Shown here: one piece after another, positions 9,297 to 52,154 of the stretch
Layout of the letters: the number at the start of each line of letters is the position of its first letter
How positions within the stretch are numbered: position 1 is the stretch's first letter
Origin: Succinivibrio dextrinosolvens
Lineage (GTDB): Bacteria; Pseudomonadota; Gammaproteobacteria; Enterobacterales; Succinivibrionaceae
Direction of reading: 5' to 3'
Length of the DNA stretch: 64,000 nucleotides
Assembly (NCBI RefSeq): GCF_011065405.1
Contig: NZ_CP047056.1
Location: 518,747 to 582,746 of the forward strand
Notes under the pieces: generated by a model
Told to the model about the DNA's origin: nothing
Database searches by the model: none
What the model saw: only the letters and a program-made list of their open reading frames with translations
Program-made: the position numbers and the translations under genes

Positions 9297-9316
9297 TTAT
9301 AAATCCCTTTCTGCGA

Positions 9317-35487: not shown

Positions 35488-35605
35488 TTTGACATCTCCC
35501 CTATTCATGGCTAAAGCCAGGGGGCGGGCAATCTTTGGTAAAACCGATACTATTGCATGAGGACGGGGCTGCTTTTTACCTACCTATTTAAGCTGAAGTC
35601 GGTTG
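35488..35605 (-). mobile_element. Solo IS200/IS605 right-end or omega-RNA-like scar
   Basis: On the minus strand the sequence folds as GGTAAAA...TTTTACC followed by CCCCCT-GGCTTTAGCC-ATGAATAGGGG, the nested hairpin style seen at the 3' end of IS200/IS605 elements, where the TnpB guide RNA and right end overlap. No tnpB frame is left here. It may be the leftover end of an old copy. The assignment rests on pattern memory of these ends, and no search could be run. The surrounding spacer 35214-35682 holds no gene. Confidence 0.4.
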
Positions 35606-35659
35606 AACTACCAGAGATTTAAACAGGAAAAGTAAAACAATTAAGAAGAAATGACAGAC

Positions 35660-35681
35660 AAAAAAAGCACCCTAAGGTGCC
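35660..35681 (-). terminator. tRNA-Ser terminator displaced by the integrated element
   Basis: Read on the minus strand, GGCACC-TTAG-GGTGC plus a T7 run directly follows the duplicated tRNA 3' end at 35683-35703. In the uninterrupted chromosome this would stand just after the tRNA-Ser gene; the element has moved it 8 kb away. Confidence 0.7.
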
Positions 35682-35682
35682 G

Positions 35683-35703
35683 TGGCGGTGAGAAAGGGAT
35701 TCA
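35683..35703. other. Distal attachment site (copy of tRNA-Ser 3' end)
   Basis: TGGCGGTGAGAAAGGGATTC matches the tRNA gene end TGGCGGTGAGAAGGGGATTC with one difference over 20 bp; similarity fades after this. Confidence 0.85.
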
Positions 35704-35746
35704 ATTTTAATTTTTATCTTTAAGATTCAATCTAATAAAAAATAGT

Positions 35747-35768
35747 GATCCCATTTTTGATCCCATTT
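35747..35768. promoter_or_regulatory. Two GATCCCAT repeats, putative integrase arm sites (left)
   Basis: GATCCCAT occurs at 35747 and 35759, 12 bp apart. Three more copies sit at the other end of the element. Short direct repeats at both ends with helical spacing are typical of arm-type recombinase or excisionase binding sites. Confidence 0.5.
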
Positions 35769-35819
35769 TTTAAAGTTTTTTTGATATTTTTTTATGAGAA
35801 TGTAAAGGAGCTTTCAAAG

Positions 35820-36044
35820 ATGGTTGTTCATTCTTTAAATTTAGCTGTATCGAAGGGCTTTATAAAATTATCCGCTGCTAAAGATTTTTTATTATTACGT
35901 CATGTGCCTGATTCATTTAAATATGATGATAACTGTATTTTATTAACAGTTCATAAGGCTTTCACGTATCAGGGTAAAGAATACAAGAGGGGTGATATTA
36001 TTCTTCATTTTTTAGATAGTCAGGATATACAGAAAATACAATGA
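35820..36044 (+). CDS. Small unknown protein at the left end of the element
   Basis: A 74-residue protein starting MVVHSLNLAVSKGF, preceded by a strong ribosome-binding site AAAGGAG with 9 nt spacing. It looks soluble and globular (DNCILLTVHKAFTYQGKEYKRGD). The same frame is open further upstream from 35745, but that extension is a hydrophobic Phe-rich run with no ribosome-binding site and overlaps the GATCCCAT repeats, so I reject it. No family recognised. It could be a satellite accessory gene. It faces opposite to the integrase and replication genes. Confidence 0.6.
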   Translation: MVVHSLNLAVSKGFIKLSAAKDFLLLRHVPDSFKYDDNCILLTVHKAFTYQGKEYKRGDIILHFLDSQDIQKIQ

Positions 36045-36066
36045 GTAAAAAGAGGAATAAAAGAAA

Positions 36067-36159
36067 ATGGAGCTTAAACAAATCAACTTATCAGAAGTAA
36101 ATTTTTTTGATATGTTTGATCCAGTCGTGGATCTTTCGACATTTACTAAACAATACTGA
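36067..36159 (+). CDS. Possible 30-residue micro-protein
   Basis: The frame MELKQINLSEVNFFDMFDPV... ends at 36159, just before a terminator. A 19-residue, very basic frame (36042-36101, MSKKRNKRKWSLNKSTYQK) overlaps it and starts with an ATGA junction at the stop of the preceding gene. Either could be a real small gene in the same transcript; the ribosome-binding site for the 30-residue frame (AGAGG) is rather far away. Weak evidence. Confidence 0.3.
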   Translation: MELKQINLSEVNFFDMFDPVVDLSTFTKQY

Positions 36160-36172
36160 ATAAAAATAAAGT

Positions 36173-36201
36173 AAAAGGTAAGAAATAACTTTTCTTGCCT
36201 T
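36173..36201 (+). terminator. Terminator-like hairpin, copy of the one at 3489
   Basis: AAAAGGTAAGAAA pairs with TTTCTTGCCTT. The core GGTAAGAAATAACTTTTC is identical to the hairpin at 3489-3518. Confidence 0.6.
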
Positions 36202-36210
36202 GTATTTATA

Positions 36211-36570
36211 GCCTGATAAGCTGATTATCCTTAAGAAGTCATGTGTCTAATACAGTGCCTTTGTTATAGTTTTCCAGATATAAACGACATACGACCTTCA
36301 ATACATCTGGAACTATCATCAAGGGCGTTAAATGCCCCCGCCACTATTCAGCTATTAAGCTGAATCATCTGTTAAGCCTTTGTTGTTTTAGTTATTCCCA
36401 GTAAAGAAGGATTGTAGAGCGCGCTCAAAAGCCTGATAAGGTCATATCTTTTAGATGGTATATTGCTGCTTAGTTGCTTGCATTATAGAAATGAAAAAAA
36501 AGCTACTGATAAGCTGATTCGCTTTAAGAAGTAATGTGTCTAATACAGTGCCTTTGTTATAGCTTTTATA
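36211..36570. repeat. Satellite repeat family, copy A (ends with a partial second unit)
   Basis: One unit contains, in order: TAAGAAGT(C/A)ATGTGTCTAAT with CAGTGCCTTTGTTATA; a stem ACGCCCTT...AAGGGCGT (imperfect in this copy); ATTCAGCTATTAAGCTGAAT, an inverted repeat; GAGCGCGCTC, a perfect palindrome; and GATAAGGTCATATCTTTTAG. A second unit begins at about 36507 and breaks off at 36570, where the 204-bp inverted repeat region starts. No frame runs through it. Confidence 0.85.
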
Positions 36571-36595
36571 AAATCTTATTTTTTGTATTTATATA

Positions 36596-36799
36596 TTCTG
36601 AATAATTAAAAATCGTGTCACTTTAGTCACTTTTTTAGTTTTTTATTTAGTTCTTTCAATAAGTTATTATTATAAAAATGGTGACTAACATAAATAAACA
36701 ATTATCAAACAATCGCATTAACTAATTGATTATTAGATATAAAAACAATGTGACTTTATAAAGTCACCAAAAATAAAACAGTCACCTTTTTTAAGATCT
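36596..36799. repeat. 204-bp inverted repeat, left copy (candidate replication origin)
   Basis: This matches the reverse complement of 42022-42225 over its full 204 bp with about three mismatches. It contains many GTGAC/GTCAC motifs, including the perfect palindrome GTGACTTTATAAAGTCAC and the direct pair GTCACTTTAGTCAC. AT-rich tracts lie between. No gene is present. P4 phage has the comparable arrangement of two iteron-bearing regions (ori and crr) bound by the alpha protein. Confidence 0.9.
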
Positions 36800-36831
36800 T
36801 ATTTCACCCGCAAATAATAAATAAATATCTT

Positions 36832-37200
36832 AATAGCCTTTAAGAAGTCATGTGTCTAATACAGTGCCTTTGTTATAGTTTTCAAGATATAAACGACATA
36901 CGCCCTTCAATACATCTGGAACTATCATCAAGGGCGTTAAATACCCCGCCACTATTCAGCCATTAAGCAGAATCATCTGTTAAGCCTTTGTTGTTTTAGT
37001 TATTCCCAGTAAAGAAGGATTGTAGAGCGCGCTCAAATACCTGATAAGGTCATATCTTTTAGATGTTATATTGCAGCTTAATTGCTTGCATTATAGAAAT
37101 AAAATAAAGCTCCTGATAAGCTGATTCGCTTTAAGAAGTAATGTGTCTAATACAGTGCTTTTGTTATAGCTTTTCAGATAAAAAAGACATACACATTAAA
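36832..37200. repeat. Satellite repeat family, copy B
   Basis: Same unit and orientation as copy A, about 90% identical, again followed by a partial second unit (from about 37117) that ends at the stop of the 37196-37471 gene. The ATTCAGC(C/T)ATTAAGC(A/T)GAAT stem has a mismatch here, while the ACGCCCTT/AAGGGCGT stem is intact. Confidence 0.85.
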
Positions 37201-37471
37201 AATAATTTAAAAAAGTATTCCTTTGTTTTTCTATAAAATCGTGTTGTCTATCCTCTGACAGTTCTAAATCATGAAAATACATTTGTGTTTTAGGTTCTGA
37301 ATAAGATCTTTTTTCAATCCCTAAAAGCCACTTAATAGCGACAACTGGATCTTTATTAGCCCTAATATAATGACGGCATAACCTACGCGCCTTTGAATAA
37401 GACAGATTAAACATTAAACAAAATTCTTTTAATGATCGATACTGAATACCATTAAAGACAAATGATTTCAT
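37196..37471 (-). CDS. Small putative DNA-binding protein of the element
   Basis: A 91-residue protein with a strong ribosome-binding site (AAGGAG) upstream of the ATG at 37471. The first half, IQYRSLKEFCLMFNLSYSKARRLCRHYI, has the spacing of a helix-turn-helix, and the rest is polar. It is isolated between two repeat copies. A role as a regulator or replication accessory protein is inferred only from size and setting. The family is not recognised. Repeat-family sequence runs right up to its stop codon, so the repeats may have invaded around it. Confidence 0.65.
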   Translation of the reverse strand: MKSFVFNGIQYRSLKEFCLMFNLSYSKARRLCRHYIRANKDPVVAIKWLLGIEKRSYSEPKTQMYFHDLELSEDRQHDFIEKQRNTFLNYF

Positions 37472-37658
37472 TTTTTTAACTCTCCTTATAGTTGTTTTCT
37501 GTATCAGCCTATTTAATAGGGATAGGGGGTGAAAATCTCTACAAAATAGCCCTATTCTACCGACCCGCCTAAGTTTTTTTTATTATGCGGTCAAATTAGC
37601 AAAATAAATCTATTTAGAATCTACGATAAAAAATAAAGATAGTATTTTCAACTCTTAA

Positions 37659-38163
37659 CCAGTAAAGAAGGATTGTAGAGCGCGCTCAAAAGCCTGATAA
37701 GGTCATATCTTTTAGATGGTATCTTGCTGCTTTAAAGTTTTGTGAGAAATAAAAAATATATAGCCTGATAAGCTGATTATCCTTAAGAAGTCATGTGTCT
37801 AATACAGTGCCTTTGTTATATCCTTTCAGATATAAACGACATACGCCCTTCAATACATCTGGAACTATCATCAAGGGCGTTAAATGCCCCGCCACTATTC
37901 AGCTATTAAGCTGAATCATCTGTTAAGTCTTTGTTGTTTTAGTTATTCCCAGTAAAGAAGGATTGTAGAGCGCGCTCAAAAGCCTGATAAGGTCATATCT
38001 TTTAGATGTTATATTGCAGCTTAATTGCTTGCATTATAGAAATGAAAATAAAGCCCCTGATAAGCTGATTCGCCTTAAGAAGTAATGTGTTTAATACAGT
38101 GCCTTTGTTATATATTTCCAGATATAAACGACATACGCCCTTCAATACATCTGGAACTATCAT
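37659..38163. repeat. Satellite repeat family, copy C (longest)
   Basis: It begins inside a unit (AGTAAAGAAGGATTGTAGAGCGCGCTC), runs through one full unit and most of another, and stops at GGAACTATCAT (38163), about 140 bp from the replication gene stop. Same orientation as the other copies. The spacer 38164-38303 has no gene. Confidence 0.85.
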
Positions 38164-38303
38164 AAAAGAGAAATAAAGATTTTAAAAGCGGGCAGCCATG
38201 TTTTAAAAACTGTTTCAGCTAGTCGATTTTCGGGCGTTTTACCACCCGAAATATATAAAAGCCTTTCCCAGTACCTTTTAACCTTTACAAAAGAATATAG
38301 CCA

Positions 38304-40673
38304 TCAACTTAAATAAAAAGGTTCGTTATTATCTTTAGTTCCTTTATATATTGAAGGTCTTTGTTTTTCACATTCTTTTTTATATGGGGCATAAGTTTTA
38401 AAGGCTTTTGGCAAAATAATAGTTATTTGTTTTTTATCAAGCCCCGCAATTTTTTGATCTCTGCAAATATGAAGGTTTAGAAGTTCGCAAAATACATCTT
38501 CAAAATGTTTTCGTGTTATTTTTTTAAGGGTTAAGAAATTGTTGTATTCGTGCCACTCATTCCAGTAATGCTTAATTGTGAATAACTCCATATTTTCAGG
38601 GGTAATCATTACATAATTTAAAAATGGCAAATTAGCCTTTATATTTTGTTCTTCTATAAAGTCAGATATTGCCTTATAAATGCTTGTTCCCTTTTTGGCT
38701 TTATTCTGTATAGAATCAATAAAAGGACTATCAGATATATATTTCCCAGTTGCTTTATAGTTTTTTAAACACTTATAAAAACCGTTGGTTAATAAATACA
38801 TAAATAAAGTATCTTTCATTTTCTGATCTTTAAAATCAGGAAAGATATTTTTATATTCAGGTCTATTTATTTTTGTGTTTAATGGAATATAAATCAATTT
38901 GTCTAAGATTTGAGGATCTTCAAAACCTATATAATGGTTCGAAGTTATATATAACCTACACTCTGGATAAAAGCCGCTTTTTTGTTGTATGTTTTTGCGC
39001 GCGCCTTCAATCATGCCACCGCCTAAAAGCTGCTTTATACAATCCCCCACGTTATCAAGGTTTATTTTGCTTAACACACTGGCGTTACTGTCACCGCTTG
39101 CTCCTTCATCTACTAACAATAAAGCGGTATGTTCAAGAGTAGCGATTTCAAAATTATGCTTAGAGCGATCTAAATCATCTAAATTTTTACTACTGAAGTA
39201 GAGTGTTTTATCAAATAGTGATCCTAAAACAGAATCAATTAGAGTCGTTTTGCCTGAATCAGCTACACCATGCAAATAAAAGAATTTTTTAAATTTTTGT
39301 GAACGCGATAAAGCTAGGCTTAAACTTTCAATAATCCTAGTTTTTATCTCTTGATAGTGATCTTTATATTCAGGGTTATATTTTCCAGATAAACAATTAA
39401 AGTATTCATCTATTTTTTTATATCTTTCTGTATCTTTTGAAAAGTTTTCTAAATAATTCGCTTGAATAGGCATAACAACAACAAGATTAGGACTAAAACC
39501 CAGTAATGTAGATTCTTCAGGGTTTTCTGTATTTATTTTTAATATACCGTTATTGACGGCTATATAGTTATCAGGGGCTTTATGTTTTTCCGTGCCATTT
39601 GCCATACATCTAAGATTATTTAATGACTTATCGCTTAACATTCCAGTTAATTGTGCGCTTTCTTCTGTTTCATTCGCGTATTGAATAGATAAATGTAGCC
39701 CTGATATTGTTTCATTATCTATGTGATAATATCGACCATCAAAAAGCCCCGACCTTTTAAAGCCCTGACTGTATAAAATATTAGTGTATTCACAATTAGA
39801 GCAAAAAAGGCGCGCTGTTTTCCCCTCTGTCGATAGTTCTTTCAGATCTTTTAAAGATAATGGGCGTTGCTGTCTTTCTTCAATAGTGATTTTATTTTGA
39901 TTATCTATATCAATAGATATATTTTGATTTAATTGAAGTGCCTTCTGTAACTCATTTCTAATAGATAAAACAGTAGATTCACTTATAAAAAAGTGTTTTT
40001 CTTTTCCTATCAAATCATAACAATTTTGCTGCGCTGTTTTTATATATTCAGTTATACATATATAAAAGGCATACAAAATAATTAAATCACTGGCACTGTA
40101 TATGCCATCTTTAAGAATTGTGATTATTAGGCGTGTATTTTCGTATATGGCGGGGTTATCAATATCCCCTTTGTTTTTTAAAATGGAAATATTAGATCTT
40201 AATTGTTTAATCTGTCTTATACTCTCTAAATAATTCGGGTTTAATAAGTAATGAACTCTAAAAACTAAAATTTTGATAGCTAGCATTAAAGAGCTTTCTG
40301 AAAACTGAAACGCGTTAAACGTATTAAATGCGTGTGCTAGGCATTTTTTATTACTCCTATCACGCGTTAATAAAGTTCTTTCTGCGTTTTTTATAATTCT
40401 TTTTTGTATATCTTCAGGTAAATTTTCTAAAGTGTCAGTGTTACTTAACGCGCTTTCTGAATCGGTGACAAAATTCTTCTTTATTAACTCTAAAATATTG
40501 AGATATAGCGCGGGTGTTTTATCATCAGGGGCTTTTAGCTGCTGTATATTCTGAAATAAGTTTTTATTATGAATAATGTTGTTTATTTCATTAAAAATAG
40601 ATTCGTATGTATCAGTAGGATAATTAAGCATATAAATACGCGCCCTTAGTTTTTTGTTATACTGAAGGGGCAT
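38304..40673 (-). CDS. Replication protein with SF3 helicase domain (P4-alpha-like size)
   Basis: A 789-residue protein. The C-terminal half is an SF3/D5-type helicase: Walker A GVADSGKTT (about 470), Walker B TALLLVDEG (about 520) and the motif LYITSNHY (about 576). The N-terminal about 290 residues are helical and match no primase signature I know; a CxxC (FCSNCEY, about 293) and the block after it could be a degenerate primase core. P4 alpha is 777 residues with primase, helicase and origin-binding parts, so the size fits. An inner ATG at 40631 has a better ribosome-binding site (AAGGG). It should unwind DNA at the element's origin. It follows two alpA-like genes. Confidence 0.85.
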   Translation of the reverse strand: MPLQYNKKLRARIYMLNYPTDTYESIFNEINNIIHNKNLFQNIQQLKAPDDKTPALYLNILELIKKNFVTDSESALSNTDTLENLPEDIQKRIIKNAERTLLTRDRSNKKCLAHAFNTFNAFQFSESSLMLAIKILVFRVHYLLNPNYLESIRQIKQLRSNISILKNKGDIDNPAIYENTRLIITILKDGIYSASDLIILYAFYICITEYIKTAQQNCYDLIGKEKHFFISESTVLSIRNELQKALQLNQNISIDIDNQNKITIEERQQRPLSLKDLKELSTEGKTARLFCSNCEYTNILYSQGFKRSGLFDGRYYHIDNETISGLHLSIQYANETEESAQLTGMLSDKSLNNLRCMANGTEKHKAPDNYIAVNNGILKINTENPEESTLLGFSPNLVVVMPIQANYLENFSKDTERYKKIDEYFNCLSGKYNPEYKDHYQEIKTRIIESLSLALSRSQKFKKFFYLHGVADSGKTTLIDSVLGSLFDKTLYFSSKNLDDLDRSKHNFEIATLEHTALLLVDEGASGDSNASVLSKINLDNVGDCIKQLLGGGMIEGARKNIQQKSGFYPECRLYITSNHYIGFEDPQILDKLIYIPLNTKINRPEYKNIFPDFKDQKMKDTLFMYLLTNGFYKCLKNYKATGKYISDSPFIDSIQNKAKKGTSIYKAISDFIEEQNIKANLPFLNYVMITPENMELFTIKHYWNEWHEYNNFLTLKKITRKHFEDVFCELLNLHICRDQKIAGLDKKQITIILPKAFKTYAPYKKECEKQRPSIYKGTKDNNEPFYLS

Positions 40674-40745
40674 ATATTTTTGTATAGCCTATAAATTTAT
40701 ATATGCCCTTTTAGATAGAGCTTTAAACTTTTTTTGTTTTCAGCT

Positions 40746-41006
40746 CTATTTTTTATTTAAATCTGTATTTAGATTTTGTTTTATCCAGAAAGTAACATCT
40801 TTTAATTTCCAGAATAAACGCCTTTTTATTTTTGCAACTGGTTTAGGAAATGAAAGATCTTTTCTGTATCTCTTAAAAAAAGTAGAGCTTGCCATTCCCG
40901 CTAATAGACAAACGCCTTCTTTTGGTATTAGCCATTGATTAGGTTCTATTTTTACAAGGTTGTTAAAAAACATTTCGATTTCTGCATATATGGTTGTGTC
41001 ATTCAT
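40746..41006 (-). CDS. AlpA-family regulator/excisionase, second copy
   Basis: An 86-residue protein of MerR/AlpA winged-helix type: PKEGVCLLAGMASSTFFKRY (helix-turn-helix), FPKPVAKIKRRLFWKLKDV and FWIKQN, the standard AlpA core. AlpA proteins activate integrase or excision genes in satellites and cryptic prophages. GGGGA precedes the ATG. It lies 16 bp after the first AlpA-like gene and 72 bp before the replication gene, suggesting one transcript. Confidence 0.85.
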   Translation of the reverse strand: MNDTTIYAEIEMFFNNLVKIEPNQWLIPKEGVCLLAGMASSTFFKRYRKDLSFPKPVAKIKRRLFWKLKDVTFWIKQNLNTDLNKK

Positions 41007-41022
41007 TTTTTATAGTCCCCTA

Positions 41023-41223
41023 TTAACTAAGATTGGTTTGAGAATTTTTTGATAGCAGCCATTCATCTATACTGTTTTTGTCATAAACTTTTTTCCCTTT
41101 TGTTATTTCTAAACCTTTTGGAAAAGTCGGATCATTCTTCAAAACCCTATAAAATAAGGCTTTTGAAATGCCTAAATAGTTATATACCTTTGTTGCAGTC
41201 ATATATTTAAGTTCATAAGTCAT
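41023..41223 (-). CDS. AlpA-family regulator/excisionase, first copy
   Basis: A 66-residue protein with the same core: TATKVYNYLGISKALFYRV, then DPTFPKGLEITKGKKVYDK and SIDEWLL. The frame is open further upstream to 41289, but that extension is a hydrophobic run with no ribosome-binding site; ATG 41223 has GGAG about 12 nt before it. Two different AlpA-like proteins in tandem suggest one acts as excisionase and the other as transcription switch. Confidence 0.8.
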   Translation of the reverse strand: MTYELKYMTATKVYNYLGISKALFYRVLKNDPTFPKGLEITKGKKVYDKNSIDEWLLSKNSQTNLS

Positions 41224-41466
41224 AAAAAAATAAACTCCAAAAAATAGCAAACCACCATAACCACAAAAATAATCTATAATTATTTTCATATAGTATCATT
41301 AAATTTCATAAGGCTTTTAAAGCTCCTATGAAACTAAGACAATATTAAGTATACACAATAAAAGGCTTTTGTTTTAATAAATGAAAAAATTACTAAGGTT
41401 AGATATATATAACAATATTCACAATAAACAATAAAAAAAGAATGATAGATAAGTAATAAGAGTTAC

Positions 41467-41570
41467 AAGGAATGACAAGGAATGATCATTAAGATAAAGG
41501 AATGACAACACAAAACGTTAAAAAAAAGTAATGAAATATAGATAAAAGTAATGAGATATAGATAAAAGCT
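41467..41570. repeat. Short direct repeats upstream of the alpA genes
   Basis: AAGGAATGA occurs three times (41467, 41477, 41497), followed by two copies of a GTAATGA(A/G)ATATAGATAAAAG unit. The gene-free stretch 41290-41646 holds these and otherwise AT-rich sequence. It should contain the promoter of the alpA-alpA-rep transcript; the repeats are candidate regulator sites. Confidence 0.5.
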
Positions 41571-41646
41571 AAGAAAACTTATATTTAACTAATTTTAAAA
41601 AATTTGAGCTATATCAAATTTATTAAAGGTAATTATTTAGACACAA

Positions 41647-42013
41647 TGCAGCCATTAAGCTGAATCATCTGTTAAGCCTTTGTTGTTTTAGTTATTCCCA
41701 GTAAAGAAGGATTGTAGAGCGCGCTCAAAAGCCTGATAAGGTCATATCTTTTAGATGGTGTATTGCTGCTTTAAAGTTTTGTGAGAAATAAAAAATATAT
41801 AGCCTGATAAGCTGATTCGCTTTAAGAAGTCATGTGTCTAATACAGTGCCTTTGTTATAGTTTTCAAGATATAAGCGACATACGCCCTTCAATACATCTG
41901 GAACTATCATCAAGGGTGTTAAATGCCCCGCCACTACTCAGCTATTAAGCTGAATCATCTGTTAAGCCTTTGTTGTTTTAGTTATTCCCAGTAAAGAAGG
42001 ATTGTAGAGCGCG
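41647..42013. repeat. Satellite repeat family, copy D
   Basis: Same orientation and sequence as copies A-C, although it sits next to the inverted (right) copy of the 204-bp repeat. It ends abruptly inside the GAGCGCG palindrome, 8 bp before the 204-bp repeat begins. Confidence 0.85.
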
Positions 42014-42021
42014 AAAAATTG

Positions 42022-42225
42022 AGATCTTAAAAAAGGTGACTGTTTTATTTTTGGTGACTTTATAAAGTCACATTGTTTTTATATCTAATAATCAATTAGT
42101 TAATGCGATTGTTTGATAATTGTTTATTTTTGTTAGTCACCATTTTTATAATAATAACTTATTGAAAGAACTAAATAAAAAACTAAAAAAGTGACTAAAG
42201 TGACCTGATTTTTAATTATTCAGAA
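42022..42225. repeat. 204-bp inverted repeat, right copy
   Basis: Reverse complement of 36596-36799 with the same GTGACTTTATAAAGTCAC palindrome and GTGAC motifs. It lies directly downstream of the integrase stop (42249). Together with the left copy it encloses the replication module. Confidence 0.9.
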
Positions 42226-42248
42226 CATATAAAACTAGAAATATAAAA

Positions 42249-43505
42249 TCATTCTTCAATTAACTTTTTAAATGATTCTGTTAAACAGTTTTGTACTAAA
42301 TAATCATTATAAAAATTCAGTAATAAAGAAAACTCCTTTAAGTAATCATACTTATTGTATGTTATGTGAATTTTATCATCTGTTTTGTGAGATAAAATTT
42401 TATCTATGTCTTTCTCATTAAAATTCATTTCAAATTTTTGGGATACTAAAAAAGTGTTAGCTGTTTTTCTTAATCCATGTATATTTAAATATTCAGTTAT
42501 ATTTGGGGGCAAAAGCATTAAACTTGCAGATATTTCTTTATTAGGGTTTGTCTTTGAAGGAAATAAAAAAGGGCTTTCCATACATTGAGTGATCTCTTTA
42601 TATTTTTTTAATAATTTTTTTAAATAAGGTGTTAGCGGGATAATATGATCTAAATGTTCGGTGTCGCGCCTTGTTTTTGTTTCATTGTTAGGAATGAGAA
42701 TAAAACCATGTTCGCAATTTTCCATTGATTCGCTATGAATATGATCCCATCTTAATTTTCTTATTTCTCCCCCTCTGCTAACAGTAAAAAGAACTAAAAG
42801 AATATAAACCTTATAACTTAAGGGATAATCATCAAGAGGGCTAAAAAGTTTTTCTTTTAACTGTTTAATATCAAGCCATTTAAAAGGTTTTGAAGGTTCG
42901 GAAATATTCAGATTTCTATCATTAAATTTTGGTTGTCTGGTATATCCGATTAAATCATTATGCTGAATAATACCATCAAGGCGGGCTTGTTCTAGGCAAG
43001 TTATAAGAGTGTTTAAACAGTTTTTTAGATTTCTTTTAGAGGTCTGTATATTAGCCGTTAATTCATTAACCAGTAGCGGCGTAATTTCATCTATTCTGTA
43101 ATCATCAAAAATATGCAGAACGCCATTATAATAGGCGTTTTTATTTCTGATTCTGGCTATACTAAGATTTAAATTTTTATCTGATTCAGCGCGCCATTTT
43201 ACCCAGTAATCTTTAAATAAAGGCGTTTTCTTTTGTTCTAAAATGTCATTTTTAGCCTTATCAGCAAAAATTTTTGCCTGATTATATGCAGTCGTTAATT
43301 TCATTTGTTCGTAATTGCCTATACATAAAGATGTATCTTTGTTATTTGCTTTAATTCTAGCCCAGTATGTAACAGAGTTATTTCTAACTAACAAAAATAA
43401 GCCACCGCCTAAACCTATTTTCTTTTGTTTTAGGTTGTTTTGTTTTATTTCTTGTTTTGCGGTTTTTAGCTTTTCAGATACATCTTTTTGTTTTAGCAAG
43501 TTCAT
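42249..43505 (-). CDS. int: Tyrosine recombinase (integrase) of the element
   Basis: A 418-residue P4-type integrase. An N-terminal arm-binding domain (about 1-90) is followed by a core-binding domain and the catalytic domain with R244 (TVSRGGEIRKLRW), H343-x-x-R346 (IHGLRKTAN), H373 (ILSHKTDD) and the nucleophile Y383 (ITYNKYDYL). All catalytic residues are present. It should integrate the element into the tRNA-Ser gene 180 bp upstream. The ATG at 43505 (AAGGGC upstream) is chosen over an in-frame ATG at 43535 that lies inside a GATCCCAT arm repeat. Confidence 0.94.
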   Translation of the reverse strand: MNLLKQKDVSEKLKTAKQEIKQNNLKQKKIGLGGGLFLLVRNNSVTYWARIKANNKDTSLCIGNYEQMKLTTAYNQAKIFADKAKNDILEQKKTPLFKDYWVKWRAESDKNLNLSIARIRNKNAYYNGVLHIFDDYRIDEITPLLVNELTANIQTSKRNLKNCLNTLITCLEQARLDGIIQHNDLIGYTRQPKFNDRNLNISEPSKPFKWLDIKQLKEKLFSPLDDYPLSYKVYILLVLFTVSRGGEIRKLRWDHIHSESMENCEHGFILIPNNETKTRRDTEHLDHIIPLTPYLKKLLKKYKEITQCMESPFLFPSKTNPNKEISASLMLLPPNITEYLNIHGLRKTANTFLVSQKFEMNFNEKDIDKILSHKTDDKIHITYNKYDYLKEFSLLLNFYNDYLVQNCLTESFKKLIEE

Positions 43506-43527
43506 AGCATAGCCCTTTTTTATATGT

Positions 43528-43560
43528 GATCCCATCTACTGATCCCACATAAGATCCCAT
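43528..43560. promoter_or_regulatory. Three GATCCCA repeats, putative integrase arm sites (right)
   Basis: GATCCCA occurs at 43528, 43541 and 43553 (spacing 13 and 12 bp), directly upstream of the integrase start and in the same orientation as the two copies at 35747-35768. Integrase binding here could also repress int. Confidence 0.55.
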
Positions 43561-43686
43561 ATATTTTTAAAACCTCTATATACAATTATAGACTATAATA
43601 TACAAAAAAATACTTGAACAGCCTTTAAAATAAGGTAATATGAAAACTTGATGAAACTTTAGAAAACGGGGTGATTTTTATTAGAA

Positions 43687-43709
43687 TGGCGGTGAGAAGG
43701 GGATTCGAA
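43687..43709. other. Proximal attachment site within the tRNA-Ser 3' end
   Basis: These bases of the tRNA gene are repeated at 35683-35703; the crossover must lie within the shared segment. Confidence 0.8.
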
Positions 43710-43776
43710 CCCCTGATACGCGTTAACGTATACACGCTTTCCAGGCGTGCTCCTTCAGCCTCTCGGACATCTCACC
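43687..43776 (-). tRNA. tRNA-Ser(GGA)
   Basis: The minus strand reads GGTGAGATGTCCGAGAGG..., with the 7-bp acceptor stem GGTGAGA/TCTCACC, a long serine-type variable arm, a GGTTCGAATCC T-arm and an encoded CCA (43687-43689). The anticodon GGA is at 43742-43740. The 3' half is the integration site of the 8-kb element, which restores an intact 3' end. Confidence 0.97.
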
Positions 43777-43888
43777 ATGTGAACGATGTTATTTTACTTA
43801 AAAATCTGTAATTTGCAAGAGCCTGACCACATCAGATCATCAAAAAAACCGGTTGATCTGGGGAAATTTAAAAAATTGAATAATAGAC

Positions 43889-44620
43889 TTAACAAGAATA
43901 GAAGTGGAACTTGTACCTGAGTCTAACAACTCCTGCCCTGACCACCTCACAGGATATGAGTTCCAGGGACTGTCCCTTCCCTGGTTTTTCATCAGGTTTT
44001 CCCTCGTACTCAAAGATTGAGCCTACACCGGATAGACCATCAACACCAGGATAAATCACAAGATACAGTTCATCAATCAGGCCCTGCTTTAAAAATGAAC
44101 CGTTAAGCTTACCACCACCGCTTAAAAGAACCTTTCTTAAACCAAAATCAGAATAAAGACTGTTTAACGCTCTGCGAAGATCATTACCGTCCTTTCCCGC
44201 AAAGGTATACGAGATTTCATGCTCTCTTAAATAATCAAGATATTCTTGAGAACAGGTATCCTCTCCAAGGATAACCATTAAAGTAGAGTGACCAAGAGTA
44301 TTGTCTTTATAGGCAACTGAACCTTTAGAGTCAAATACTGCGGTCATCTTGCTGTGAGTACGGATACCTAGAAAAGGTTCAGGATTCTCAACCTTAGTAT
44401 GAGTATCAGAGTGAAACTCATCTGAACAGTGATGTCTTTTTACAGTGTTTACACCTAATACAAAAACATCTGCCCTGATTTTTTTCTGAGTTTCATAGTA
44501 AACATCAGGATCACCTTCCCCTTTTTCACTGTAAAGGACAGACCATCTGGACTCATCAATACGTCCGTCGACAGAACTTTCCATAAGACAGATGACTCGC
44601 TGGGAAGGAGTGGTAACCAT
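43889..44620 (-). CDS. RibD C-terminal/dihydrofolate reductase-fold protein
   Basis: A 243-residue protein of the RibD_C/DHFR-like superfamily. It has the N-terminal MESSVDGRID segment, the FVLGVNTVKR stretch and LLSGGGKLNGSFLKQGLIDELYLVIYPG, which are standard for this family. Such enzymes reduce a pteridine or ribosylamino-pyrimidine with NADPH. There is no deaminase domain and no riboflavin genes nearby, so it is more likely a stand-alone reductase than RibD itself. It lies between the tRNA-Ser gene and the trb cluster. Confidence 0.85.
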   Translation of the reverse strand: MVTTPSQRVICLMESSVDGRIDESRWSVLYSEKGEGDPDVYYETQKKIRADVFVLGVNTVKRHHCSDEFHSDTHTKVENPEPFLGIRTHSKMTAVFDSKGSVAYKDNTLGHSTLMVILGEDTCSQEYLDYLREHEISYTFAGKDGNDLRRALNSLYSDFGLRKVLLSGGGKLNGSFLKQGLIDELYLVIYPGVDGLSGVGSIFEYEGKPDEKPGKGQSLELISCEVVRAGVVRLRYKFHFYSC

Positions 44621-44683
44621 ATAAAAATCCTCAAGAAGACTAACCTTGTTTATGATTATACAAGAATACTCAAAGAAAAAAAT

Positions 44684-45589
44684 TTACTTACCTGGATTTC
44701 TGTTAACAAGAAATCTGTATTTCTTTAAGGAAATTCCTCCGGCCCCATTCTCAAAGCCATTGGTTCCATACATCAGCGAAGACATAACCGGAGGCAGTGA
44801 TTTGGATAGAACATACATAAACAGAGAGATAAATATCATCACCATGCAGTCAGAATGTTTTAAAACACTCATACCATCCTCATAAAGTCTGGTTGCCTCA
44901 ATCACATCGTTCAATATCCTGCATCCGGCTTTGATAATGATAAGAACTGTAACTAGTTCAAGGCCTTTTGAGATCAGAAGCTTAAGATAATTCACCGCAA
45001 AATGACGGGTTGATTTAAGACCTCCAAAGCCAAGGACAAACACTCCGATTATGCATAAAATCTGAGCGGTAAGATAAATACTTACAAAGCGCAGTATTAC
45101 AAAAAACATCACCATCGAAAAAACAATCATACAGACAATGATCTGGACCTTAGATACAAGCCCCAAAACATTTAAGGTGGTAAGATTAGTGATCTGCCGG
45201 TCTATGTTGAACACCAGATCAATAAGCTCTGACGGTCCCATATAACCGTTATCAACCATGGTTACAAAGGAATCAATTATCGACTTGCCTATAGCATAGT
45301 CATTACTCAGAAGATAGAAGAAAATACCGGTAAATAGAACTCCTGTAACTAAAGAGAAGAAAAACTCCGACATATCGCCGTTAAAAGCACAGCGTATACC
45401 GGTCATAACCATACTCATTGGAACTAAAAACCAGAAGAGCCTCATGGCGGCCTTATGAATAGGAACAGCACTGTCATTCACACATAAGACAAACTCGTCT
45501 ATCAGAGAATTTAATATTCCATCCGCATTGAGTTCAACAGCGGATGCTGAACCTGTTATAAAAAGGAGGGATAGCAGTAAGATTTTCAC
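44684..45589 (-). CDS. trbL: TrbL/VirB6-family inner-membrane component
   Basis: A 301-residue polytopic protein with a signal-like N-terminus (MKILLLSLLFITGSASA) and five or six hydrophobic helices. It occupies the TrbL slot at the end of the cluster. VirB6/TrbL forms part of the inner-membrane DNA path. RP4 TrbL is much longer (about 528), so this protein is closer to VirB6 in size and lacks the long TrbL tail. A GTG at 45589 is preferred over 45598 since AAGG is 8 nt before it. Confidence 0.8.
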   Translation of the reverse strand: MKILLLSLLFITGSASAVELNADGILNSLIDEFVLCVNDSAVPIHKAAMRLFWFLVPMSMVMTGIRCAFNGDMSEFFFSLVTGVLFTGIFFYLLSNDYAIGKSIIDSFVTMVDNGYMGPSELIDLVFNIDRQITNLTTLNVLGLVSKVQIIVCMIVFSMVMFFVILRFVSIYLTAQILCIIGVFVLGFGGLKSTRHFAVNYLKLLISKGLELVTVLIIIKAGCRILNDVIEATRLYEDGMSVLKHSDCMVMIFISLFMYVLSKSLPPVMSSLMYGTNGFENGAGGISLKKYRFLVNRNPGK

Positions 45590-45603
45590 CGAGCTCACCT
45601 TAA

Positions 45604-46374
45604 CTACATAGTCACATCCAGATGACGTGATTTTGTATTATTATCATTACGTAAAAAAAGCTCATCTGCCTTTTCTTTTATCTTTTCCTTTTCGTGGTTC
45701 TTGGTAATTTCACTTGAAGAAATTCTGTTGAGATCAGAGATCTGAGCTGTAAGCTGCACCAGAGCATTAGCCTGAGAAGCATTTACTTTTGAGAGCGTAT
45801 CAATAGAATCATTAAGCCCCAGTGAATCCTCGGACTGCATGGAGAATTCATTGAGTTTATCTATGCTTTCAAGCAAAAGCTGCTGAGTCTTTATGGCGTT
45901 TTCTTTTGTATGTGCTGAAACAGATAAGGCTTCATTATCAATCATCTGATTAAGCTTCCTGAAATTGCAGGAATCACTTTCAAGACACTTAAGCCAGGCC
46001 TCTGATCTGATGGAATCCTCTGAATAGCCTGCTGCCGATTCTGTATTTTTGGCAAAGGCATAGCTGGCTTCTAAAAGCAGCATGGAATTCTGATTAAGCT
46101 CCTGAACGGACTTCCAGGCATCCTTATACTGAAAGCTGGAATTACTCTCCTCTCTGGAGTTCTCCTTTATAAAATAGGATTCAAGTTTTCTAGCCTTACT
46201 GCTGTTATCCTCTGACCAGGCCTTAAGCGTCTTATAGGTGGCATTAAGCTTTTCAATCATCTCATTGCCCTGACTGTGAGAAATTCCGCCAGACTGAGCG
46301 GCTGCAATGTTAATAAGAAGATAACCTGCAAGACACAAAATAATAAAATTAGTATTTAATAAAATACTCTTCAT
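45604..46374 (-). CDS. trbJ: TrbJ/VirB5-family pilus protein
   Basis: A 256-residue secreted protein: signal peptide (about 1-26), then long helices containing QQLLLESIDKLNEFSMQSED and LVQLTAQISDLNRISS, the helical hairpin style of VirB5/TrbJ minor pilins. RP4 TrbJ is 258 residues. The ATG at 46374 (GGAG 7 nt before) is used, which overlaps trbI by 26 bp. The position between trbI and trbL is the IncP order; RP4 has trbK between them, missing here. Confidence 0.7.
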   Translation of the reverse strand: MKSILLNTNFIILCLAGYLLINIAAAQSGGISHSQGNEMIEKLNATYKTLKAWSEDNSSKARKLESYFIKENSREESNSSFQYKDAWKSVQELNQNSMLLLEASYAFAKNTESAAGYSEDSIRSEAWLKCLESDSCNFRKLNQMIDNEALSVSAHTKENAIKTQQLLLESIDKLNEFSMQSEDSLGLNDSIDTLSKVNASQANALVQLTAQISDLNRISSSEITKNHEKEKIKEKADELFLRNDNNTKSRHLDVTM

Positions 46375-47740
46375 GATTAACTCCATAAGGTTCTTTGAAA
46401 AAGATATCCTTGGTAAGAGATATGGTGAACTTATAGCCAGGCTGAACCTTCAGAGTTGGAGCGAGATTGATGTTACGCTCAATGATTCGGCTCAAGGCCT
46501 CGGTAACATCGGATGAGAGTTCCCTTGCCTGGGTAGTATATAGAGTTCCGGCTCCTGATGTGGTCCCGTAAGTCTGCTGGACTGATGAAGCTGCCGTGGT
46601 TATTGAGGAGAGGAAAAAGCAGTTGCTTAAGATCCTGAAGAAATGATTATCGACATCTGCCTCAAAACCAGCAAAGCCGTCAGGAGACTGTCCCGGCATT
46701 GAACCTATATTGATAGAATGTCCATTAGGAAAAATAATACGGTTAAAGCCTAAAAAAAGACGCTGAGCTCCGAATGCGGCAGTTGAACCATACTGACCTA
46801 AAAGCTTTGATCCCTTAGGTATTAACAGGAATCTGCCGCGGATACTGTCTCTGATATCACGGGTTACCATAGCGCTTATCTGTCCAGGCAGCTCTGAATT
46901 GATGCCGGTGGAGAGAACCGCTGGAATGACAGTCCCCTGCATCAGAGCAAAAGGCGTCTTAGGCTTTATCACTTCATTTTCAAGAGTAAAGTTGTCCCTT
47001 TCAAAGACCTCATATCTGGAAAGAGTCTGCTCCGCCTTATCAAAAGATGAATGCCTGTCATCAGAAGCCGTAAAAATATCAGACTCATCTTTACTATAAC
47101 GAGATGAAGATGCATCATTTACAGGCTTTACAGAAACTGCAGTCTCATCATGGTTAAAACGCAGCTCCACTCTGGTAGGAGCAGCTTTTGCCTTACGATA
47201 TTCTGCCGCACGGTTAAGATTGAGTTCATTCTCCTTTGGTTTTCTCTCTTTTATTCTTTCAGCAGAAGCCTCTGCTGTGTAGGAATAATCCTCAGCTTTT
47301 GAGTTTCTGTCTAAAAGATTCCCCTTCTCCCTGTACTTTATGTATTCCTTAAGATAATCCTCCGTATCCATACTTTGCTCAGGTGAAGGAACATTCTTCT
47401 GATCTGGTGACAATGACGTTGAAACAGAAACAGCAGTTTCCTTTAAATTATCTGAGAATACCTCCTTTGCATCATATTTTGAAGGTTCAGCATCGCTTTT
47501 AGCCTTTTCACTACCATCTTTTGAAGACAGATTTCTTGCGATCCCCGATGCTACCTTATCAGCATATTTAAGGTTGTTCTCCACACTGTACAGTTTCTCC
47601 CCAGCCTTAACCGCTCTCTTATTCTGAGAATTAATGATATAACCCGACATTACTATCATAAGGATACAGGCAGAAGCTCCGATAGTAATGAGATAGCCCC
47701 ATTTTTTGGATAGCGGGCCTGTTCTGATTCTGTCAAACAT
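46349..47740 (-). CDS. trbI: TrbI/VirB10 core-complex protein
   Basis: A 463-residue protein with a cytoplasmic N-terminus, one membrane helix (about 17-35), a long charged periplasmic linker and the C-terminal TrbI domain (VIPAVLSTGINSELPGQISA, FLLIPKGSKLLGQYGS). VirB10-type proteins span both membranes and sense ATPase energy. It starts 2 bp after the trbG stop. Length equals RP4 TrbI (about 463). TrbH is absent between trbG and trbI. Confidence 0.93.
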   Translation of the reverse strand: MFDRIRTGPLSKKWGYLITIGASACILMIVMSGYIINSQNKRAVKAGEKLYSVENNLKYADKVASGIARNLSSKDGSEKAKSDAEPSKYDAKEVFSDNLKETAVSVSTSLSPDQKNVPSPEQSMDTEDYLKEYIKYREKGNLLDRNSKAEDYSYTAEASAERIKERKPKENELNLNRAAEYRKAKAAPTRVELRFNHDETAVSVKPVNDASSSRYSKDESDIFTASDDRHSSFDKAEQTLSRYEVFERDNFTLENEVIKPKTPFALMQGTVIPAVLSTGINSELPGQISAMVTRDIRDSIRGRFLLIPKGSKLLGQYGSTAAFGAQRLFLGFNRIIFPNGHSINIGSMPGQSPDGFAGFEADVDNHFFRILSNCFFLSSITTAASSVQQTYGTTSGAGTLYTTQARELSSDVTEALSRIIERNINLAPTLKVQPGYKFTISLTKDIFFKEPYGVNHEEYFIKY

Positions 47741-47742
47741 AC

Positions 47743-48687
47743 CTAGACCTCCTTTACGATATCCGCACAGACAGACTTGCCATCTGATCCACTGACAATA
47801 CGAAGATGATCGTAGACACCGTCGATTACATAGGTATGCCCCTCAATGCGGAAGTTTAAAAGAGCAGTGTTATCTTCTCCTAGCAGAGGCAGCCCGTCAC
47901 TGGTAACTCTAAAGACTGTAGGCAGATCATTGCGCTGAAATTCAGATGGTAGCTGTATATAGGTATTCACCCCATCATCAAAGGCGTTTATAGGAAGGAG
48001 TGAATCATCTCCCTCTACAGAATAGGAGTAATTACGGCTTCTGCCTGAGCTACCACCTTCAACTTTACTGTTTTCATTTGTTCCATACTGATATGAGACA
48101 GTAGAAATTCTAGGTGAGGGCTCCATATTGTCAGCAAGAGAGTAGTCAAAGCGCTGAGCTGCTCTTGAGTCTTCATACTGAGAAGAATTAAGCTTCAGAC
48201 TATGACCGGGATAATTGAAGCTTACTGCCGGCATAAAATCCTTCTGTGATGATTTCAGAGCAATATGATAGGTACGGCGATTGGTGGCTATGATAAGGGA
48301 TGTTTTAAGTCCGTTATCCAGAGCTTTGACCACAATATGCTCGGTTCTGTCAGCTCCACTGCCAGATACTGCACTGTCAATAAGCCAGCGGGTAGAATCT
48401 CCTAGCTGAACGGTAAAAACGCGCTCGCCTTTTTCCATGGAGATATCCGTTATTTCAAACAAAGCACAGACCACAGTAGGGATTCCGCTGCCATAGGTAA
48501 ATATTACCTGTCCTGGTAACACAGCCTGAGCTGAAACCTGTCTTCTGTCTAAAACCTCAAGTTTCTGTATGGTGTTAAGATCACGCTCATCAAGATAAGA
48601 CATTTCACCACCATATTCACTGCCATCCGAGGCAATACAGGCAAAGGAGAAGCAAAGAGAAATCAGAAGCACATTCTGTTTATTCAT
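47743..48687 (-). CDS. trbG: TrbG/VirB9 outer-membrane core protein
   Basis: A 314-residue protein with a signal peptide and the VirB9/CagX pattern: an N-terminal domain with FTYGSGIPTVVCALFEITDI and a C-terminal domain with DGVNTYIQLPSEFQRNDLPT and YVIDGVYDHLRI. It forms the outer-membrane ring with VirB10 and normally with a VirB7 lipoprotein, which is not seen here. Its ATG lies inside the end of trbF (8-bp overlap). Confidence 0.93.
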   Translation of the reverse strand: MNKQNVLLISLCFSFACIASDGSEYGGEMSYLDERDLNTIQKLEVLDRRQVSAQAVLPGQVIFTYGSGIPTVVCALFEITDISMEKGERVFTVQLGDSTRWLIDSAVSGSGADRTEHIVVKALDNGLKTSLIIATNRRTYHIALKSSQKDFMPAVSFNYPGHSLKLNSSQYEDSRAAQRFDYSLADNMEPSPRISTVSYQYGTNENSKVEGGSSGRSRNYSYSVEGDDSLLPINAFDDGVNTYIQLPSEFQRNDLPTVFRVTSDGLPLLGEDNTALLNFRIEGHTYVIDGVYDHLRIVSGSDGKSVCADIVKEV

Positions 48688-49366
48688 GGTTCATCTCCTT
48701 AACAAGTTTTTTTGAAGTTCTAATCTCATAGATCAGAACTGAAAGAGGATTAAGTCTTATCTCCTCCACATTATCAAAGCTGATGCTGCCGATTCTATAG
48801 CTTAAAACGGACTTGAAGTGCTTTTCTGTTATCTCATCAAATCTCTGGGTTATAACAGAATAGTCCACCTGAAAGCTGTTATTAGAAAGTCGTGAGACAC
48901 TATCGATTTTTACATCTGCAAGAAGGTTACCTCCAGATCTGAACAGCTCCGAGTCGTTATAAAAGCCATCAAGATAGCGACGGGCCTGACTTTCCAGATC
49001 CACCATGGAATAAACCTTGCGGATATACTCTCGCTGAAGAGAGCTGTCCTGACACATAGAGAATGCTTTTTCTATAAAGTCACACATAAAAGCGGCCAGG
49101 GCTGTTTCGGGAATTTCCTTTGAACTCTGAAGTCGATCGGAGGCAATAACACTGCCCTGTTTATCTACTGTAACTATATAGGGAATAACCTGAGGCTCTT
49201 TATGCAGCAGCAGAAGATAACCAAGCGATACAAAGCCAAGCGCTATACCACCTAACCCCATAATCAGCGGAAGAACATTTCTCATGTAACTAGATGAGGC
49301 AAAGGTATACAGAGTTACGGAGTCTCTATGCTCCTTTCTCTTAAATAAAGATCTTAGAGTTCCCAT
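48680..49366 (-). CDS. trbF: TrbF/VirB8 inner-membrane assembly factor
   Basis: A 228-residue protein with one N-terminal membrane helix (about 32-55) and a periplasmic NTF2-like domain (ESQARRYLDGFYNDSEL, NNSFQVDYSVITQRFDE). VirB8/TrbF nucleates the secretion complex at the inner membrane. It overlaps trbE by 13 bp upstream. Confidence 0.9.
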   Translation of the reverse strand: MGTLRSLFKRKEHRDSVTLYTFASSSYMRNVLPLIMGLGGIALGFVSLGYLLLLHKEPQVIPYIVTVDKQGSVIASDRLQSSKEIPETALAAFMCDFIEKAFSMCQDSSLQREYIRKVYSMVDLESQARRYLDGFYNDSELFRSGGNLLADVKIDSVSRLSNNSFQVDYSVITQRFDEITEKHFKSVLSYRIGSISFDNVEEIRLNPLSVLIYEIRTSKKLVKEMNHE

Positions 49367-51852: not shown

Positions 51853-51854
51853 AA

Positions 51855-52154
51855 TCAGCGGTTATATTTTGAATGATACTTTGAATACTCAGAAGCCTGA
51901 GCCTGATAAAAAGATCTATAGCGGATATTTCTTACATATACCTGTCTGAACAGAGGATCACTACGGGTCATATGCGCAATAACGGCCCATCCGGCAAACA
52001 TAATCAGAAGAGTCTCAATGGAACCCAAAAGTGAAATATTCAGAATAAAACCAAGCATACACAGCATCAGCCAGAGCAGAAACAGTGTTCTCTCTGCACC
52101 TAAAAGCGTATGTGTTCTTAATAATGAAGGATAAACCTGATGTTTTTTATTCAT
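51855..52154 (-). CDS. trbD: TrbD/VirB3 inner-membrane protein
   Basis: A 99-residue protein with two hydrophobic helices (about 23-61) and a polar tail ending YSKYHSKYNR. Size, position before trbE and pattern fit VirB3/TrbD, which links the ATPase to the pilus base. The 193-bp gap upstream (52155-52347) to trbC contains no convincing gene. Confidence 0.85.
   Translation of the reverse strand: MNKKHQVYPSLLRTHTLLGAERTLFLLWLMLCMLGFILNISLLGSIETLLIMFAGWAVIAHMTRSDPLFRQVYVRNIRYRSFYQAQASEYSKYHSKYNR

Follow-up and report, generated by a model that had tools for sequence, protein, structure and literature searches.

Satellites of the phage P4 type carry psu, delta, sid and epsilon as core genes, besides int, alpA and alpha. 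P4 replication needs both the origin (ori) and crr, which is labelled 'cis required region for replication' in record X51522, and the reason for a second cis region besides the origin is a puzzle of this system. Here we describe an element of Succinivibrio dextrinosolvens in which a gene for a 789-aa replication protein (Rep) lies between two long inverted copies of one sequence, the arms. It was analysed within a stretch of 64,000 nt (GCF_011065405.1, NZ_CP047056.1, positions 518,747-582,746 of the forward strand), hereafter the window, to which all coordinates refer. Judging from the sequence, we consider it probable (about 0.6) that the element is a cos-packaged phage satellite whose inverted arms are cis-acting replication stations of its own replicon. 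The two-station layout would then be the known one of P4, and its realisation as mirrored near-copies probably new; if true, such stations would permit a direct test of whether the roles of ori and crr differ or whether both are equal Rep-loading sites. The element also appears to be a cos-type satellite of the Succinivibrionaceae, and the chromosome in which it resides contains a prophage that is a candidate helper.

Other satellites resemble the element in part. The Gram-negative phage-inducible chromosomal islands (PICIs; EcCICFT073), as described in PMC6092414, share with it int, alpA, rep and a helper-like cos site, as well as the lack of a recognised capsid-remodelling gene, which would imply helper-size capsids. 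The same paper places the PICI origin at one place, immediately 3′ of the replication gene, and describes it as always consisting of two iteron sets that flank an AT-rich region. In contrast, the first 1.5 kb 3′ of rep in the element contains a cos-like sequence, repeats and a small open reading frame (ORF91), with no cluster of the GTGAC motif of the arms. The role of AlpA-type proteins is, according to this source, excision in the case of P4 Vis and activation in that of PICI AlpA. The minimalist islands of this kind in Vibrionaceae (PICMIs), as described in PMC10803314, are also very small, carry int, alpA and a primase-type gene, and are packaged as a concatemer. They differ in their insertion next to fis, the element being located in tRNA-Ser, and in the packaging signal: neither a cos nor a pac site was found by the authors in the helper, but a cos-like site is evident in the element. 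The PICI-like element (PLE) of Vibrio cholerae is another satellite that encodes an initiator of its own and has an iteron origin, but this initiator is of the RepA_N type and three ~30-bp semi-palindromic iterons form a single origin (PMC7145576 and PMC8263062).

Inverted arms and their likely counterparts in P4

The arms and the operon between them are arranged as follows.

36588-36804, + strand: left inverted arm (arm L), 217 nt; palindrome 36750-36767; sites at 36617 (-), 36626 (-), 36681 (+), 36750 (+), 36763 (-) and 36781 (-)
38304-40673, - strand: Rep, 789-aa superfamily 3 (SF3) helicase-type replication protein with a P4-family-like C-terminal half (PF19263, PHROG, TIGR01613)
40746-41006, - strand: AlpA-like protein 2 (below the PF05930 cut-off, E 0.095; resembles an HTH_17/excisionase-like protein of the resident prophage, 34% over 65 aa)
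41023-41289, - strand: AlpA-like protein 1 (PF05930, E 3e-4, 21 bits, equal to the cut-off)
42017-42233, - strand: right inverted arm (arm R), 217 nt; six GTGAC-type sites; palindrome 42054-42071

The original prediction had described 36596-36799 and 42022-42225 as near-perfect reverse complements which share a palindrome and further GTGAC/GTCAC sites and enclose a replication gene, two alpA-like genes and one small gene. All of this was borne out: the two blocks differ at exactly 3 positions in 204 bp (36615 and 36616, which are adjacent, and 36691), each arm contains GTGACTTTATAAAGTCAC once and six sites, and the small gene is ORF91. The segment enclosed by the arms additionally includes a cos-like sequence and multiple copies of a 290-bp direct repeat, more of which are found to the left of arm L. 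In the repeat search the arms were ungapped over 217 nt, 97% complementary and 5212 nt apart. Both are noncoding and AT-rich (the G+C content of the 204-bp arm is 21.6%), and in each, two of the six sites form a pair at one end, one stands alone and the remaining three are at the opposite end. BLAST revealed no third copy in the own genome (3,468,545 bases).

Arm L contains 6 GTGAC/GTCAC sites against 0.126 expected, a number reached in 0 of 5000 first-order Markov resamplings, and the other 7588 bases of the element, outside the arms, contain 2. The palindrome GTGACTTTATAAAGTCAC occurs twice in the window; when up to three mismatches were allowed, the chance mean was 0.06 and two occurrences were reached in 1 of 100 shuffles. 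With at most one mismatch, this 18-bp sequence was found in a single one of 56 genomes of the family, the own one, and there only at the two arms. Since the palindrome is private to the element, its reader is probably encoded by the element itself. The arm DNA had no match among phages, and two short partial matches among plasmids were taken as chance.

In a simple scan, GTGACTTTATAAAGTCAC together with its T-rich tail scored as an outward-facing, terminator-like site in each arm, as would be expected if the palindromes were terminators insulating the module. The stem is weak, however (3 G-C pairs), 5 terminator-like sites were found against 3.5 expected in shuffles, and terminators would leave the other GTGAC sites and 200 bp of near-identity unexplained; this explanation is hardly credible.

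The arrangement of the sites was compared with that of P4 (X51522), whose type-1 iterons form two clusters, one at crr (4291-4590), directly 3′ of alpha, and one at ori (9310-9413). The latter is located 5′ of ORF88, which we take to be alpA/vis, the first of a leftward gene series ending in alpha. Scanning P4 for clusters of TTCACC/GGTGAA gave exactly two, ori and crr, flanking the alpA-alpha operon, and the same scan gave two equivalent places in 4 of 5 P4-like elements of E. coli, drawn from the best 12 of 1143 records. In the fifth, with an alpha of 81% identity, a drifted motif, AGTGAACA, was present in the two equivalent regions examined. The GTGAC cluster scan of the element gave just the two arms, one 5′ and one 3′ of the alpA-alpA-rep operon. 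The element and P4 therefore have in common two iteron stations, about 5 kb apart, upstream and downstream of an operon that contains an alpA-like gene and the gene for an SF3-type helicase, of the P4 family by profile. Their iteron cores are alike (GGTGAACA in P4 and GGTGACT in the element, with a GGTGA core), and the sites are of mixed sense and include a pair spaced by 9 bp. Read in the GGTGA sense, the sites follow the order --++-- in arm L and --++- in a P4 crr unit, and the first two are 9 bp apart in both; this likeness is only a hint, because the order alone has a chance of 0.06. The differences concern (i) the stations, which in P4 are unlike each other, crr being two direct 120-bp repeats, whereas those of the element are near-identical inverted copies with another motif (GGTGACT), and (ii) the genes sid, psu, delta and epsilon, which were unmatched in Pfam and PHROG scans of the six main ORFs of the element. 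None of the six P4-type loci (P4 and the five E. coli elements) contains a long near-identical inverted pair; the direct crr repeats were seen as a BLAST match in 5 of the 6, L126 being the exception.

The profile scans (Pfam, PHROG) covered the six main ORFs, with ORFs of <60 aa and other overlapping ORFs left out. Rep matched PF19263 (DUF5906) above the cut-off (E 5.6e-7, residues 467-583), the PHROG DNA primase family (E 1.4e-8) and TIGR01613, 'phage/plasmid primase, P4 family' (E 3.5e-6, below its cut-off). The best-matching stretches are located within, or run into, the helicase half, in which a Walker-type GVADSGKT segment can be read. The label 'primase' derives from matches of the helicase half only. 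Matches to PDB entries at E 0.001-0.3 were disregarded, as they seemed to concern unrelated proteins.

We conclude that the arms most likely serve as the cis sites to which Rep binds, and that the replicon has two stations like that of P4, in the form of near-identical inverted copies. This reading, together with that of a cos-packaged satellite, is based on (i) the clustering of sites only at two noncoding AT-rich places, upstream and downstream of the rep operon, (ii) the P4-motif control scan, which gives ori and crr, together with the profile matches of Rep to P4-family helicases, and (iii) a cos-like sequence that is found within 0.9 kb of the gene for the small terminase subunit (terS) at 8 of 13 other places (see below). 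A structural likeness to the two-region design of P4 had been noted in the original prediction; the layout, with two stations flanking the operon, agrees with P4 and 4 of the 5 E. coli controls, and the interpretation as a whole is partly supported.

Several results weigh against the two-station replicon. The motif used in the P4 and E. coli control scan was known beforehand, and an unguided 6-mer count over the arms placed AT-rich words (13, 12 and 12) ahead of AGTCAC (10). BLASTP of Rep against P4 alpha was not significant (E 0.23), and no primase domain was recognised by profile in its N-terminal 358 residues. Single-sequence structure models of Rep and of its C-terminal 158 residues were unusable (predicted local distance difference test scores of 33 and 40), which leaves a DNA-binding domain unsupported, and the GTGAC sites could be read by AlpA or Int instead. 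In the 19 genomes of the genus, 56 of the family and 369 of the class that served as comparison sets, Rep found itself only; it was unmatched in IMG/VR, GTDB contigs, phages and plasmids, the contig scans reaching close relatives only, and no relative carrying the arm pair was found in the collections searched. A GC-skew origin was rejected: although the skew peaks within arm L and is lowest 0.7 kb away from arm R, a range as wide as that observed was reached by 125 of 1000 shuffles.

Each arm may, alternatively, be a complete PICI-type origin, of which one would suffice, the second being a duplicate rather than a partner. The arms do consist of two iteron sets around AT-rich DNA, as PMC6092414 describes for PICI origins, and 3 differences in 204 bp, two of them adjacent, fit a recent copy. 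The origins described there are, however, immediately 3′ of the initiation gene, while in the element 1.5 kb separates the rep stop from the nearer arm and the second arm precedes the operon; placement on either side fits P4 better. We regard this explanation as possible, though tentative. It is unlikely that the arms are AlpA operators or excision sites, or Int accessory sites, with no role in replication. Two alpA-like genes are located between them, and AlpA-type proteins excise or activate (PMC6092414). Neither arm, however, adjoins an att core (arm R is found at the 3′ end of int, and attL is 0.9 kb away from arm L), and no gene starts directly downstream, the nearest (alpA1) being 0.7 kb off with a repeat copy intervening.

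The identity of the arms is 98.5% over the best 204 bp and 96-97% over the full 217-228 nt, and the best long pairs among the 290-bp repeats are 95-96% identical, little below the full-length arms. Because the full-length identity hardly exceeds that of the repeats, recent copying or homogenisation of the arms is likely, yet not peculiar to them. In the yeast 2-micron circle, recombination between inverted repeats re-orients the fork for amplification, and long near-identical inverted repeats on a circle can in principle recombine. The arm pair could similarly serve to flip the 5.2-kb module or to re-orient a fork, which would accord with 98.5% identity over 204 bp against 95-96% in the 290-bp repeats. 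We consider this very unlikely, since the margin nearly disappears over the full 217-228 nt, none of the six main ORFs was recognised as a second recombinase, and cos packaging would be poorly served by a concatemer of mixed orientations. Decidedly unlikely, too, is an arrangement in which two interchangeable mirror-image origins flank the replication operon, are kept alike by arm recombination and send out forks of opposite sense, so that the 5.2-kb module (with cos) can invert during replication. A composite transposon was dropped as a candidate: the profiles of the six main ORFs pointed to no transposase, and by eye the arm edges showed no target duplication.

Insertion site and gene content

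Further features of the element, apart from the cos-like sequence and the repeats, are listed below.

35683-35702, strand not given: attL core, 20 bp; 1 mismatch to the 3′ end of tRNA-Ser at 43687-43706
35745-36044, + strand: ORF99, small protein adjoining attL; no family match above cut-off
37196-37471, - strand: ORF91, homologue of a small phage gene adjoining antiterminator Q (49-51% over 91 aa to loci L060 and L058; 49% to the resident prophage copy)
42249-43535, - strand: tyrosine integrase, 428 aa (PF00589, E 9.4e-9; phrog_1, E 1.1e-33)
43687-43776, - strand: tRNA-Ser (GGA), the insertion site, with the attR core at 43687-43706 (ARAGORN, Rfam tRNA, site comparison)

Comparison with related genomes placed the element at 35683-43706 (~8.0 kb per unit), within tRNA-Ser, because its flanks are contiguous in genomes G016 and G002 with an overlap of 20 bp. 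In G016, window positions 35538-35702 and 43687-45000 align to a single continuous stretch, and G002 shows the same uninterrupted-site pattern from 35616-35702 and 43687-44677. A distance of 0.4 kb separates the outer flanks (up to 35439, and 43683 onward) in G001, where the left core is unmatched. Farther left, G016 contains 8.6 kb of extra genes between the equivalents of 35438 and 35538, none of them similar to genes of the element. Repeats of the GATCCCA type, seen by eye just within both ends (35684-35790 and 43536-43600), are candidate integrase arm sites.

From tRNA-Ser inward, the element encodes the tyrosine integrase, the two AlpA-like proteins, the 789-aa protein, ORF91 and, by attL, ORF99. 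The integrase and replication genes are present, and the ORF list and profiles revealed no virion structural gene among the six main ORFs; no capsid-size gene or PICI-specific gene was recognised in the element. In L058 and in the resident prophage, the gene homologous to ORF91 overlaps by 14 bp an antiterminator-Q-like gene, which in the prophage matches Pfam just under the cut-off (E 2.1e-5) and PHROG with E 2.1e-8. ORF91 homologues were found within the fetched stretches at 8 of the 13 other places with a cos-like sequence. P4 delta is a homologue of P2 ogr (PMC8628076), and our guess, by analogy with delta, is that ORF91 could link the element to late expression of a helper.

The cos-like sequence and the candidate helper phage

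The putative packaging signal is located between ORF91 and rep.

38176-38277, + strand: cos-like sequence, best conserved at ~38216-38249; 76-77% identical to L058, L059 and L060

The whole element was compared with the DNA of the family, at most the best 5 candidates being taken per genome, a limit by which weaker matches may escape. Outside the element, the longest match was 38172-38277, in phage contigs; the others were of 29-44 bp. A degenerate pattern of the core was found at 11 places in 7 of the 56 family genomes, all 7 of the own genus, and the reversed pattern at none. Together with 3 places in IMG/VR this gives 14, one of which is the element itself, leaving 13. At 8 of these 13, terS is located 28-875 bp from the cos-like sequence. 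The 8 places represent about four phage groups: (i) G013:C5 with L061-L063, (ii) G014:C93 with G015:C132, (iii) G004:C100 and (iv) the resident prophage. L061, L062, L063 and G013:C5 are closely related (terS 97-100% identical), and G014:C93 and G015:C132 are near-alike. No terS was seen in the stretches fetched for the other 5, namely G003:C44 (where the contig ends 190 bp on), G007:C95, G003:C2, G003:C26 and G014:C90. Both large terminase subunits tested (2 of 2) were of the lambda GpA type, and the small subunit of the prophage matched the PHROG terminase small subunit (E 1.5e-28).

An alignment of 11 cos-like rows keeps AGCTAG..GA.TTTCGG.CG..T..CCACC.G, a few of the letters in 10 of the 11 rows only, and the core has a weak dyad symmetry (7-8 of 11 pairs). 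The sequence was unmatched in the annotated phage collection. Judged by its position, this stretch of ~100 bp is very likely cos; sequence and position alike point to a packaging signal common to the element and local phages, the resident prophage included.

That prophage, around G000:C1:2910985-2911013 (L071, L075, L076) of the host chromosome, carries int, the antiterminator-Q-like gene, the ORF91 homologue, the cos-like site, terS, a gene for a GpA-type large terminase subunit, a portal gene and a tail-sheath gene. With a cos-like site and one gene shared with the element, it is a candidate helper. L081 (G014:C90, 11116-12395) and L077 (G003:C2, 7470-8635) contain a cos-like site and an ORF91 homologue amid ordinary-looking chromosomal genes; no terminase or integrase was recognised nearby, and they may be prophage remnants or minimal cassettes. 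In the cos-bearing prophage L079 (G004:C100), an integrase-like gene adjoins a tRNA-Ser like that of the element, and helper-type phages and the element may therefore compete for one tRNA-Ser site.

The original prediction had called the module that of a satellite, an identity which is well supported by the insertion in tRNA-Ser, the uninterrupted sites in two genomes and the cos-like sequence shared with phages. Given this insertion, the gene content, the ORF91 homologue of phages and the cos-like sequence, the element is probably a cos-type phage satellite.

Its life cycle might proceed as follows. Activity of the helper phage would switch on the alpA-alpA-rep operon, and the integrase, with AlpA as the likely excision factor, would release an 8.0-kb circle. 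The SF3-type Rep (789 residues) would bind six GGTGACT-type iterons in each AT-rich arm and, on the model of P4 alpha at ori and crr, arm-bound Rep would either pair across the looped 5.2-kb module or load helicase at both arms. Replication would give concatemers, which the helper terminase would cut at the shared cos site to fill helper capsids. These are probably filled with multimers, because no capsid-size gene was recognised. We infer Rep binding, origin activity, looping, excision, induction and packaging, as well as the way in which the arms stay alike.

Distant relatives and the repeat array

In the family, DUF5906 genes gave 16 matches in 9 of the 56 genomes, the own one included. Of the other 15 loci 14 were fetched, G041:C73 being left out as its match coordinates and scores were the same as those of G041:C65. 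None of the 14 (0/14) has a long near-identical inverted pair around the DUF5906 gene. Seven of them were read gene by gene, and by eye most resemble replication genes of phages or other mobile elements. Locus L044 (G045:C81) contains, at 451-2557, a gene for a 633-aa helicase that is 30% identical to Rep (over 123 aa) and, directly upstream of this gene, an AlpA-like one (30% over 50 aa); the contig, of 3.5 kb, is too short for an arm pair. L044 is possibly a distant sister replicon, the nearest candidate found. L043 and L049 also match Rep weakly. In the titles and abstracts among the matches listed, neither satellites of Succinivibrionaceae nor paired or inverted satellite origins were reported, most subscription journals being outside the coverage.

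The closest relative of the integrase (48% identical) is encoded in another genus of the family, at L113 (G040:C187), on a contig that ends 191 bp past int. The 5′ region of this integrase recurs at the opposite end of the contig (1-1526 and 12688-13065) and at the right end of L114, which suggests several copies of a sister element. Just past int, L113 contains three iteron-like copies of CAGCGGGAATA.

The 290-bp repeats account for about one fifth of the element.

36204-36588, 36813-37190, 37659-38172 and 41650-42013, all in one orientation: 290-bp repeat array, copies and part copies (repeat search)

They are noncoding and, within the own genome, were found only in this element. Five complete GAGCGCGCTC palindromes are present (36417, 37025, 37678, 37968 and 41717), with a sixth, truncated, at 42007. 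Each complete one is located between -35/-10-like hexamers on the - strand, that of the operon and ORF91. The promoter scan as a whole gave 33 sites against 43.5 in shuffles, i.e. fewer than chance, and the repeats may, on weak support, be repeated promoters. A structured RNA was rejected (z-scores -0.57, +1.33 and +0.98 for two copies, one of them on both strands), and in Rfam the element was unmatched except for the tRNA and a sub-threshold match on that tRNA.

Just past the insertion site, genes at 44684-52154 of the window resemble, by eye, a type IV secretion (VirB-like) cluster.

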